Part shown: one piece after another, positions 13,916-18,372 of the stretch
Layout: every line of letters starts with the position of its first letter
How positions within the stretch are numbered: the stretch's first letter is position 1
Origin: Bacillota bacterium
GTDB lineage: Bacteria > Bacillota > Sulfobacillia > Fermentithermobacillales > Fermentithermobacillaceae
Assembly (NCBI GenBank): GCA_012841065.1
Contig: DUVI01000053.1
Location: forward strand, 1 to 43,810
Direction: 5' to 3'
DNA: 43,810 bases
Translations under genes and position numbers: made by a program
The notes under the pieces: generated by a model
Told to the model about the DNA's origin: nothing
Seen by the model: the letters and a program-made list of their open reading frames with translations, nothing else
Database searches by the model: none

Positions 13916-16900
13916 TTAGAAGAGGGCGAGCTGCGCAGTTTCAGGCAATCCTTCAAACAATCCGTGCTCCCTCAACACTTCGCACAACTTCTTTCCGAGC
14001 CCTGTCCTTCTCCTGAAGTCTTCAACAGATTCAAATTTCCCTTGTTCCCGCGCCTTGACGATTGCAGCTGCAGCCCGGTTGCCAAGCCCCGGAATCGCCG
14101 TAAACGGCGGAATCAGCCGGTCGCCTTCAGGTATGTACCTGGTAGCATGGGACAGGTACAGGTCGTGTCGTCCGAAGGAAAACCCTCTCTCCACCATCTC
14201 AAACGCCACTTCCAGCGCAGTCGCAATATCTTGTTCCCTTGCAGTCGATGCCGGGTTGGAGTCTACTTGGTCGATGTACTTCCTCCATTCGCTTGGTTCT
14301 AGGTACATGAAGTCTGTGGTAAGCGCACTGCCTGTAAACGAGAAGTAGGTCGAGTAGAACGCCAAAGGATGATGTACCTTGAAATAGGCAATCCGGAAAG
14401 AGTTTGTGACATAAGCAGCAGCGTGAGCTTTGGGAAACAAGTAACTTATCTTCTTGCAGGACTCTATGTACCAATCGGGGACTGAGAACTGCTTCATTTG
14501 CTCGGTATCTGTATCAGACAGGGGCCGGCCTTTTCTCACCTTTTCTGCTATGCCGAAAGCTGACGCCGGGTCCAACCCCCTCTTCATCAAGTACAAGAAT
14601 ATGTCTTCACGTGTAGCGATAACTTGCTCCAGGGTTGCAATGCCGTCTCTGATAAGGTCTCTCGCGTTGTTCGCCCACACATCAGTACCGTGGGAAAGCC
14701 CTGAAATTCTCACCAGATCGGCGAAACACTTGGGTTTGGTCGCAGTAAGCATGTTCCTTACAAACTTTGTGCCGAATTCAGGTATTCCCACTGAACTGTC
14801 GGGGTTTTCACCGGAAAAGAGTCTGAGGGTCTCGGGATCATCCATGGGTATTTTCGTAGGGTCAACCCCTGTAAGCTCATGGAGGATCTTGAGCACAGTA
14901 GGATCGTCATGGCCAAGGATATCGATCTTGACCAGATGCCCTGACAATGAATCATAGTCAAAATGGGTGGTTATTGCACCTGAGCTCCGGTCATCTGCCG
15001 GGTATTGAAGGGGTGTGAACTCGAGCACATCCATGCCTTTGGGGATAACCATAACCCCGCCTGGATGTTGCCCTGTTGTACGCTTCACTCCCTCAATTCC
15101 CTTGGCAAGCCTGGTTGTTTCGGCCCGCCTGAACACCTTGCCTCTGGATTCTTCGTAGTGCTTCACAAACCCAAATGCGGTCTTCTTGGCAACCGTGGCT
15201 ATGGTGCCCGCCCTATACACATTGTCCTTCCCCAAAAGGGTCGAAGCAAACTTGAGTATCTTGCCTTGCTCTTCCCCGGAGAAGTTCAAGTCAATGTCAG
15301 GCACTTTTTCCCCTGTAAAGCCCATGAACGTTTCAAACGGTATACCCTGTCCGTCGCGCTTGAGTTCGTTGCCGCACTCAGGGCATTGCATAGCGGGCAA
15401 GTCGAATCCTGAACCGTACGACCCATCCATAAAGAACTTGTTCCAGTGGCACTTGAGGCACACATAATGAGGTGGCAACGGGTTGACCTCCGTGATCCCT
15501 GTGAGCATCGCTACCAGCGATGAACCGACTGAGCCCCGCGAGCCCACCAAATACCCGTCTTCCAGGGATTTTTCCACCATCTTAACGGCTATTAAGTATA
15601 GCGAAGCAAAATTGCCGCCTATGATGGCCGAAAGCTCCTTGTCTATCCTCTGGCGGACGATTTCAGGCCATTCCTTACCGAACAGCCGGTTGGCCCCTTC
15701 TTCAGTAAGTTTCCTCAGGATGTCGTCTGCGTCCGGAAGGTGCGGGAAATACGAACCCTGCGGAATCGGAGCCAGGTCTTCAATGGAAGCCGCAATAGCC
15801 CTGGTGTTTGCCACCACAACCTCTCTTGCCGCGTCCTCACCCAGGTAGGTCGACACTTCTTCCAGCAATTCATCTGTGGTGCGGAAATACAAAGGAGCCG
15901 GCTTCTCACCGTTATCTGTCATGCCTTTTCCCGACAACAGCAATGTCCTGAATATTTCATCTTCGGGGTTGAGGTAGTGGACGTCGCTTGTAACCACGCA
16001 CGGCTTGCCCAATGATTTGCTGAGTTCGTAGATTCTCGTGTTTATCTTGATCAGGTCTGCTTCGCCGGAAACACGGCCGCTCTCTATAAGAAACCCGTTA
16101 TTGCCTAACGGCTGGATTTCCAGGTAATCATAGAAACCCGCTATCTCCTTGAGTTGCTCATCGTCCATGCCTGCAAGCACAGCCCGATACACTTCTCCTG
16201 CTTCACAAGCTGAACCCACAAGCAAGCCTTCTCTCCTATCAACCAGTTCGGCCCTGGGTATCCTAGGCGTTCTGTAAAAATGCTCAAGGTGGGACAGGGT
16301 AACAAGCTCATAAAGGTTTCTTAAGCCTTGTTTGTTTTTCGCCAAGAGCACTATGTGGAATGCTTGTCCCTTCTCATCATCTTCTACCAGGTATGCCTCA
16401 ATCCCGTATATGATCTTTATTCCGTATTGCTTTCCTAGCCTGAACGCCTCTGGGAAAGCCTGCACTACTCCGTGGTCTGTAATTGCGATTGCAGGATGGC
16501 CCCACGAAGCTGCCAGGGCAACCGCATCTTCCAAATCCAGGACCGAATCAAGGGAACTCATCTTCGTATGCAGGTGGAGTTCAGCCCGTCTTTCGGCAGC
16601 GGTATCTTGTCTCACCTTCGGGTCAATCAGACACAAATCGTTGCATATGAGCACGGGCTCTGAATCAAGGCGGTCCAGCCGGGCACGGCCCCTCACGATC
16701 ACCCATGCACCTTCCTGAATCTCGTCAATCTTGCCTTCCTTGGGAAAAACCCGCACTGTTATTGAATCTTCATCGTCGGTGAGTACAAAAGTGCCATAAA
16801 CATCTCCGGACTGGGCCTGCCTCCATGTTACTTCCACCACCCGGCCTGCCACGGTCACATTCTCGCGCTCCCCGCCCGTTGCCTCCCGTACAGGCATTGG

Positions 16901-17284
16901 CTGGGTACGGATTGGCCTGCCAAGGAGTGCGCCGTCTTGCGGCGCCTTCTCCCCGCTATTGGGCCCGTTGCCGAAGCTGTTCTGATATTGCTCAGGGAGT
17001 TCCCAGCGTACTGTCTCAAGCTCAGGGATCCGATTTCTCAATGACTGCCCGATCTCGGTGAGCCGCAGTTCAACCTCGGTCCGTGTCAACGATTCACAGT
17101 GCTTTTTCCATAATCCAGGGTCAATTACGTCAAGGCATATGGACCATGTCGCATCATCTATGGCAACGCCTATTGAGATAACCTTGAGACACTCCAAAAT
17201 AGGATCTTCTTCTGCCCCGAGAACCTTGGCTATCTGGCTTAGGCGGAAATCATCACACGACGGTCTAACGGTAACAAGACTCAA
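13916..17284 (-). CDS. polC: DNA polymerase III PolC, exonuclease-less form
   Basis: Gram-positive replicative polymerase alpha subunit. 1122 residues against roughly 1430 for B. subtilis PolC. Order: N-terminal domain (1-130), OB fold (about 143-222), PHP (AELHLHTKMSS at 234, AIAITDHG at 265, SDVHYL at 433), polymerase core with GSRGSVGSSL (581), zinc knuckle CLKCHW/CPECG (609-638), PDIDLNF (Asp663, Asp665), KIDILGHDDPT (Asp788), and SRIAYFKVHHP-like NSFRIAYFKV (961). The 3'-5' exonuclease that normally splits PHP after AYLV is absent: AYLVEDDEKGQ (297-307) joins directly to HIVLLAKN, and no DxE exonuclease motif is seen. The start is TTG at 17284, six bases after GGAGGG, overlapping the ispG stop; the frame continues upstream inside ispG and that is rejected. 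Last gene of the rpsB operon. Confidence 0.94.
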   Translation of the reverse strand: MSLVTVRPSCDDFRLSQIAKVLGAEEDPILECLKVISIGVAIDDATWSICLDVIDPGLWKKHCESLTRTEVELRLTEIGQSLRNRIPELETVRWELPEQYQNSFGNGPNSGEKAPQDGALLGRPIRTQPMPVREATGGERENVTVAGRVVEVTWRQAQSGDVYGTFVLTDDEDSITVRVFPKEGKIDEIQEGAWVIVRGRARLDRLDSEPVLICNDLCLIDPKVRQDTAAERRAELHLHTKMSSLDSVLDLEDAVALAASWGHPAIAITDHGVVQAFPEAFRLGKQYGIKIIYGIEAYLVEDDEKGQAFHIVLLAKNKQGLRNLYELVTLSHLEHFYRTPRIPRAELVDRREGLLVGSACEAGEVYRAVLAGMDDEQLKEIAGFYDYLEIQPLGNNGFLIESGRVSGEADLIKINTRIYELSKSLGKPCVVTSDVHYLNPEDEIFRTLLLSGKGMTDNGEKPAPLYFRTTDELLEEVSTYLGEDAAREVVVANTRAIAASIEDLAPIPQGSYFPHLPDADDILRKLTEEGANRLFGKEWPEIVRQRIDKELSAIIGGNFASLYLIAVKMVEKSLEDGYLVGSRGSVGSSLVAMLTGITEVNPLPPHYVCLKCHWNKFFMDGSYGSGFDLPAMQCPECGNELKRDGQGIPFETFMGFTGEKVPDIDLNFSGEEQGKILKFASTLLGKDNVYRAGTIATVAKKTAFGFVKHYEESRGKVFRRAETTRLAKGIEGVKRTTGQHPGGVMVIPKGMDVLEFTPLQYPADDRSSGAITTHFDYDSLSGHLVKIDILGHDDPTVLKILHELTGVDPTKIPMDDPETLRLFSGENPDSSVGIPEFGTKFVRNMLTATKPKCFADLVRISGLSHGTDVWANNARDLIRDGIATLEQVIATREDIFLYLMKRGLDPASAFGIAEKVRKGRPLSDTDTEQMKQFSVPDWYIESCKKISYLFPKAHAAAYVTNSFRIAYFKVHHPLAFYSTYFSFTGSALTTDFMYLEPSEWRKYIDQVDSNPASTAREQDIATALEVAFEMVERGFSFGRHDLYLSHATRYIPEGDRLIPPFTAIPGLGNRAAAAIVKAREQGKFESVEDFRRRTGLGKKLCEVLREHGLFEGLPETAQLALF

Positions 17285-18372
17285 TTCTTTCCCTCCGGAG
17301 ATTCTGCATATTGTTGTGCGAGTCTTACCAGTGCAGGCACAATTTGTTCGCTTGCAACCCTGCCTAATACTTTGCCGCGGGCAAACAGGATTCCTCCATC
17401 CCTGCCACACGCAACTCCGATGTCAGCTTCCCGTGCCTCTCCGGGGCCGTTGACAGGACAACCCATGACAGCGACCTTCAAAGGTAAACTCACGTCCTTC
17501 AACGCATCTGACACTTGCCTGGCAACGGACACTACGTCCACCTGGGTCCGCCCGCATGTAGGGCATGAGATTATGTCGGGACCATAGAAGCCCAGTCCCA
17601 CTGACTGGAGAATCTGCTTGGCCACTTCAACCTCTTCAGAGGAAGGCCCGGTCAAAGACACCCTTACAGTATCTCCCAGGCCGAGGGCAAGCAGGGTGCC
17701 TATCCCGGCTGCCGACTTGATCACGCCGTGATTTCCAGGACCTGCTTCGGTAATGCCTATGTGAAAGGGCCACTTGGTGAATCCGGCCATCATCATATAA
17801 GCCTCTATGGTATGCTTGACGCTTGATGACTTAAGGGACAGCACGACGTTGTCTACGCCCGCATCTTCCAAATGCTTGAGGTGCCGCCTGGCACTTTCCA
17901 CCATCGCTCCGGGAGTCGGGGCACCGTAAGTTTCCAGAATGTCCCTTTCCAAAGAACCCGAGTTGATGCCGAGCCTGATCGCCGCTCCCTTTGACCGGGC
18001 CTTTTGCGCCACTTTGAGCAGTGGCTCTTTACCCCCCAGGTTGCCAGGGTTAACTCTTACCTTGTCGGCCCCCGCTTCAAGTGACAAAAGGGCCAAGTTG
18101 TAATCGAAATGTATGTCCGCAACAACAGGACATGACACTTGGTTCTTAATCGACTCAATGGCCCTGGCTGCGTCTTTGTCGACTACAGCTACCCTGACGA
18201 TTTGCGCCCCGTGGGAAACGGCTTGGCGGATCTCACTCACTGTGGACTCTACGTCTCTGGTATCGCACTTGGTCATAGTCTGAATGGATACAGGAGCTTC
18301 TCCGCCAATAATGACATCGCCACACCGCACAGGTGTGGTCATTCTTCGCTCGAATAAACGACGATAAACCAT
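17281..18372 (-). CDS. ispG: 4-hydroxy-3-methylbut-2-enyl diphosphate synthase IspG
   Basis: [4Fe-4S] enzyme of the MEP isoprenoid pathway that converts MEcPP to HMBPP. 363 residues: TIM barrel (PVSIQTMTKCDTRD, VRVAVVDKDAA, VADIHFDYNLAL, VRVNPGNLG) and the C-terminal cluster domain with CPTCG and MGCPVNGPGE, which supply the three cysteines and the glutamate ligand. ATG at 18372 with AGGTGAT upstream. It sits between rseP (50-base gap) and polC (four-base overlap), with dxr two genes upstream, so two MEP enzymes share one transcript. Confidence 0.96.
   Translation of the reverse strand: MVYRRLFERRMTTPVRCGDVIIGGEAPVSIQTMTKCDTRDVESTVSEIRQAVSHGAQIVRVAVVDKDAARAIESIKNQVSCPVVADIHFDYNLALLSLEAGADKVRVNPGNLGGKEPLLKVAQKARSKGAAIRLGINSGSLERDILETYGAPTPGAMVESARRHLKHLEDAGVDNVVLSLKSSSVKHTIEAYMMMAGFTKWPFHIGITEAGPGNHGVIKSAAGIGTLLALGLGDTVRVSLTGPSSEEVEVAKQILQSVGLGFYGPDIISCPTCGRTQVDVVSVARQVSDALKDVSLPLKVAVMGCPVNGPGEAREADIGVACGRDGGILFARGKVLGRVASEQIVPALVRLAQQYAESPEGKN

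Follow-up and report, generated by a model that had tools for sequence, protein, structure and literature searches.

PolC-type DNA polymerases that lack the inserted 3'-5' exonuclease have been known since 2013. The survey of Timinskas et al. (NAR, dated 2013; PMC3919608) reports that 6% of PolCs have no Exo domain, that nearly all of these come from Clostridia and Negativicutes and are paired with DnaE1, and that one extra PolC copy in Thermotogae is also without the Exo insertion. Similar proteins have been engineered: 3f2b is a crystal construct of Geobacillus PolC with the exonuclease engineered out, and an S. aureus PolC construct stripped of both N-domain and Exo has a polymerisation rate of 330 per s (PMC3656037). 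PHP activity has been shown for a DnaE-type enzyme, Mycobacterium tuberculosis DnaE1, in which a nine-residue centre acts as a trinuclear-zinc proofreading exonuclease whose activity is abolished by D226N, while Geobacillus PolC, in which one of the nine PHP residues is changed, is inactive (PMC5636811). Our literature search found no reports on exo-less PolC beyond two surveys (PMC3919608 and PMC12926913), and no measured PHP activity for any such enzyme. Here we describe a further member of this group, with an added N-terminal reduction, encoded in a 43,810-nucleotide stretch of DNA from a Candidatus Fermentithermobacillaceae bacterium (the window), and we trace the exonuclease across Bacillota. 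As far as the literature was searched, the prevalence in an even sample, the repeated origin, a series running from dead to excised exonuclease, and genomes free of any RNase_T domain appear to be new.

A PolC without exonuclease and with a shortened N-terminus

The gene lies at 13916..17284 on the minus strand and encodes a 1122-aa PolC-type DNA polymerase III alpha subunit. It starts with a TTG at 17284, preceded by a GGAGGG site, and overlaps by 4 bases with ispG (GcpE; 17281..18372, minus strand; Pfam PF04551), the ispG stop and the polC start sharing bases as TTGA; the neighbourhood dxr-rseP-ispG-polC is typical for PolC. Against the NCBIfam PolC models, the protein scores 1340 bits for NF001688 (cut-off 873) and 1242 bits for TIGR01405 (cut-off 1043). 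Its Pfam matches place OB (143-216) before PHP (235-385), followed by Pol3 (522-704), the finger domain (796-921) and, at the C-terminus, HhH (1041-1114). In a fold search with the predicted AlphaFold structure (mean pLDDT 85.9), the top PDB match is 3f2b, with a TM of 0.89 by target, and the top five are all PolC chains, whereas DnaE chains reach at most 0.70. The best explanation of the locus is thus a genuine and, judging by its preserved features, functional polC.

On the minus strand, the OB domain (about residues 134-226; PF01336) occupies 16607..16885, and the PHP domain (about residues 235-460) occupies 15905..16582, PF02811 covering 235-385 and the outer boundary being estimated from the structural model and the alignment. 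The polymerase core of palm, thumb and fingers (PF07733 and PF17657) spans 14165..15904 and contains PDIDLNF (D663, D665) and D788, which are invariant alignment columns and which we take, from knowledge of C-family polymerases, to be the catalytic residues. The helix-hairpin-helix region (residues 1041-1114; PF14579) follows at 13943..14164, and the protein ends in QLALF (13919..13933), presumably a motif of the beta-clamp-binding type known from PolC.

Within the PHP domain, EAYLVEDDEKGQ runs straight into AFHIVLLAKNKQGLRNLYEL. The span between the metal ligands E296 and H310 (codons 16355..16399, minus strand), the site of the roughly 200-aa DEDDh exonuclease of other PolCs, measures 15 residues here, compared with 200-221 in complete exo-containing PolCs, and a Pfam search of the protein gave no RNase_T (PF00929) match. 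In the AlphaFold model, loop 301-308 sits between the adjacent PHP strands 290-300 and 309-315. The original prediction of a PolC without exonuclease and with a direct PHP junction is therefore borne out. It had further put the shortfall at about 310 residues with all other domains intact, and this holds in part: about 200 residues correspond to the exonuclease, and about 100 belong instead to the N-terminus, where the second subdomain is absent. The window protein has 236 residues ahead of the first PHP ligand, against a median of 346 in exo-containing PolCs; PF11490 (N-terminal subdomain II) was not detected in it, while the same model matches a Clostridium PolC N-terminus; and the predicted model of this region holds only one subdomain-sized fold. 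The shortened N-terminal domain (about residues 1-106; 16967..17284, minus strand) is a single subdomain throughout the family, and it is short in several other exo-less families too.

Compared with the orthologous PolCs of B. subtilis and S. aureus, the window protein shares the OB-PHP-Pol-HhH order, the clamp-type tail and the dxr-rseP neighbourhood, but has neither of the two hallmarks of canonical exo-containing PolC, the inserted DEDDh exonuclease and an N-terminus made up of both NI and NII. Its PHP site is complete, with all nine metal ligands present (H237, H239, D246, H271, E296, H310, C360, D434 and H436), whereas most sampled Bacilli PolCs have D changed to N at the eighth. The engineered constructs 3f2b (G. 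kaustophilus) and Sau-PolC-dN-dExo (PMC3656037) have nearly the same architecture; the window PolC differs from them in being natural, and in its 15-residue loop, intact PHP metal site and one N-terminal subdomain. With M. tuberculosis DnaE1 (PMC5636811) it shares the HHDHEHCDH site, and in both proteins the loop from ligand 5 to ligand 6 is short, although that enzyme is DnaE-type with a demonstrated PHP activity and the window protein is PolC-type with a putative one. In make-up it agrees with the exo-less PolCs of Timinskas et al. (PMC3919608), which likewise combine OB, PHP, Pol3 and HhH, no exonuclease in PHP, and a co-occurring DnaE1; Ca. Fermentithermobacillia are not named in the sections of that survey consulted, and the window PolC additionally lacks N-terminal subdomain II.

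The junction is conserved among relatives

The window genome is a fragmented Ca. Fermentithermobacillaceae MAG (88 contigs, 80.7% complete), and one might ask whether the exonuclease segment was simply dropped from the contig by an assembly or binning fault. This is hardly credible. All genomes of the family and order with a readable PolC show the exo-less junction, at 15-16 residues (in G013 it was read from a fragment only, which spans it), and the same in-frame junction recurs, far more often than chance would allow, in differently assembled relatives, including the complete chromosome of Ca. Fermentithermobacillus carboniphilus (L009). Exo-less junctions also occur in many other families. 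An assembly deletion is ruled out by these conserved junctions; the clean joint and intact frame in the window had already been taken to argue against one. PHP and Pol codons evolve at a dN/dS of 0.04-0.10 (Pol 0.04-0.07), indicating strong purifying selection.

A complete second polC, which would have undermined the original prediction, was not found in the window genome at its 80.7% completeness. The genome holds two further C-family polymerases, both DnaE-type. One, on contig C45, is a DnaE1 (NF005298, 1391 bits; NF004226, 1301 bits) with a complete nine-residue PHP metal site. The third C-family polymerase (G000:C11:15327-16412; L122), of 1045 aa, has N in place of D as its eighth PHP ligand.

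Exo-less PolCs are widespread in Bacillota

We drew an even sample of 199 Bacillota genomes, each at least 95% complete except the window's own. A PolC could be classified in 145 of these, of which 79 were exo-less (two of the calls resting on an alignment that crosses the junction in a fragment) and 66 carried the insert, a share far above the 6% given by Timinskas et al. Spans between ligands 5 and 6 form two separate groups, of 14-41 and 200-221 residues, and only three incomplete ORFs fall outside them. On a tree of 173 PolCs the exonuclease state changes at least 14 times, compared with 48-59 times in the shuffles listed. Several sister pairs mixed for this state have strong tree support, and a single clade of exo-containing PolCs is rejected by a 33-row AU test (p 0.0005), the grouping having been chosen with an initial tree already in view.

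Near-identical exo-less PolCs were also seen on contigs assigned to the candidate phyla Firestonebacteria and FCPU426 (L017 and L025), a likeness that may reflect recent transfer or mis-binning. Six genomes of the same class (G038, G057, G040, G042, G044 and G060; 97-100% complete) gave DnaE-type matches but neither a PolC nor any RNase_T domain.

Stepwise loss in genus g125

The direction of change can be read in genus g125 of family f55, a family in which the PolC exonuclease is the sole RNase_T domain in nearly every genome. In G174 and G260 (loci L180 and L242) the PolC exonuclease is still in place, but eroded, with all five catalytic positions replaced: DEDhD has become AAGGE or AGGGE, whereas it is kept in 115 of 115 other inserts. 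These dead domains evolve at a dN/dS of 0.39, against 0.09-0.13 for active ones, while PHP and Pol in the same proteins stay at about 0.1. In G147 (L179) the exonuclease has been excised, leaving a span of 41 residues, the ends of which remain similar to the flanking sequence in G174 and G260. None of the three genomes has a recognisable RNase_T domain. The series demonstrates that, on at least one occasion, the domain was inactivated, drifted and was then excised.

These observations bear on whether the exo-less PolC could instead be the primitive form, with the exonuclease inserted later on one or more occasions. The scatter of exo-less PolCs over many deep branches of a tree that cannot be confidently rooted from these data would fit such a history. 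Every insert, however, occupies the same position within the PHP loop, as a single insertion event would produce; one exo-containing clade is rejected (p 0.0005); and genus g125 displays loss directly. We therefore regard primitive absence as decidedly improbable. Loss in the window's own lineage is what we infer from this, the direction of change being shown for genus g125 only.

Who proofreads?

Loss of the exonuclease raises the question of how mispaired ends are removed, for which the original prediction had offered a separate DnaQ-like protein, PHP activity or simply a higher error rate. A natural mutator arising through lost mismatch repair was rejected as a candidate: MutS_I occurs in the window genome, as it does in every exo-less relative searched.

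A DEDDh exonuclease acting in trans, either a DinG-like protein or an unrecognised DnaQ, might bind the replisome and edit for PolC. No dedicated dnaQ was found in the window genome or in most of the family. The sole RNase_T domain of the window genome lies in an 839-aa DinG-like ORF (G000:C11:55932-56384; L001, L127), keeps the DEDDh motifs DVETTG, HNPEFD and HRACDD, and may yet have a role at forks; in most genomes of the family there is a single ORF of this kind, about 840-980 aa long. The first 666 aa of the window's ORF gave no Pfam helicase match, and its helicase portion is possibly degenerate. In B. subtilis, DinG acts as a 3'-5' exonuclease, but its loss lowers mutagenesis, the opposite of what is expected of a proofreader (PMC12525004). 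Nor is the domain always there to be recruited: no RNase_T domain was found in G007, a 92%-complete member of the same family, or in G025 and G034, all three with an exo-less PolC, and across the phylum 22 of the 79 sampled exo-less genomes lack any RNase_T (DEDDh) domain, a second model (TIGR00573, DnaQ) returning nearly the same set. In those 22 genomes PHP is thus the only known candidate proofreader. Editing in trans is accordingly quite unlikely, and the suggested DnaQ-like protein finds little support.

The PHP site fares better. After removal of duplicates there were 94 exo-less PolCs, two of them fragments, and all nine ligands are intact in each of the 92 with a fully readable site. 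Among exo-containing PolCs the site is intact in 84 of 116 and changed in the other 32, mostly by D to N at ligand 8. Striking as these raw counts are, correcting for phylogeny leaves the association non-significant: the tree holds only 5 PHP changes, and the 10 independent exo pairs are mostly without a PHP difference. Since most exo-containing PolCs also keep an intact site, PHP integrity is necessary but insufficient evidence for PHP proofreading. With the nine-residue site complete in both PolC and DnaE1 of the window genome, PHP activity is nonetheless the best supported of the options first raised, and the best remaining mechanism for what we infer to be an active site in the window PolC.

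One could also speculate that PolC needs no proofreading at all, the bulk of replication falling to DnaE1, whose own PHP is intact, and PolC having turned into an accessory polymerase. Timinskas et al. raise this for clostridial systems with PolC and DnaE1 (PMC3919608), and the window genome does have a DnaE1 with nine of nine PHP ligands. A non-proofreading accessory enzyme would, however, not require the PHP ligands that are never lost in the 92 readable cases, and the typical gene neighbourhood, the strong selection on Pol and the retained QLALF tail also speak against such a role, which we consider rather unlikely.

Discussion

We find it reasonably probable that the exonuclease was lost in an ancestor and that proofreading falls to the PHP sites of PolC and of its partner DnaE1, the PHP activity being deduced from the conserved metal centre. 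According to this model, an ancestor of the window's order, or an earlier one, would have lost the DEDDh 3'-5' exonuclease that is found inside the PHP domain of most described PolCs, and since its excision a short loop has connected the two PHP strands. The loss was likely stepwise, as in the unrelated genus g125, with catalytic death followed by relaxed drift and in-frame excision. The exo-less PolC should still synthesise DNA, given its intact catalytic residues and the activity of engineered exo-deleted PolCs. Mispaired 3' ends would most likely be cleared by PolC's own trinuclear-zinc PHP site, the DnaE1 PHP site serving as a possible second proofreader, as in M. tuberculosis DnaE1.

For the phylum at large, the chances seem about even that the PolC replisome of much of Bacillota has repeatedly shed its DEDDh proofreader in this stepwise manner, and that some lineages, DEDDh-free genome-wide, rely solely on PHP, in PolC and in DnaE1. 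The finding bears on the question of why a Clostridia-type PolC would bear two potential proofreaders, PHP and DEDDh. Natural DEDDh-less PolCs permit a direct test of whether the PHP site of PolC proofreads, and the best material for such a test is genus g125, where dead and excised versions stand beside active ones of the same family.
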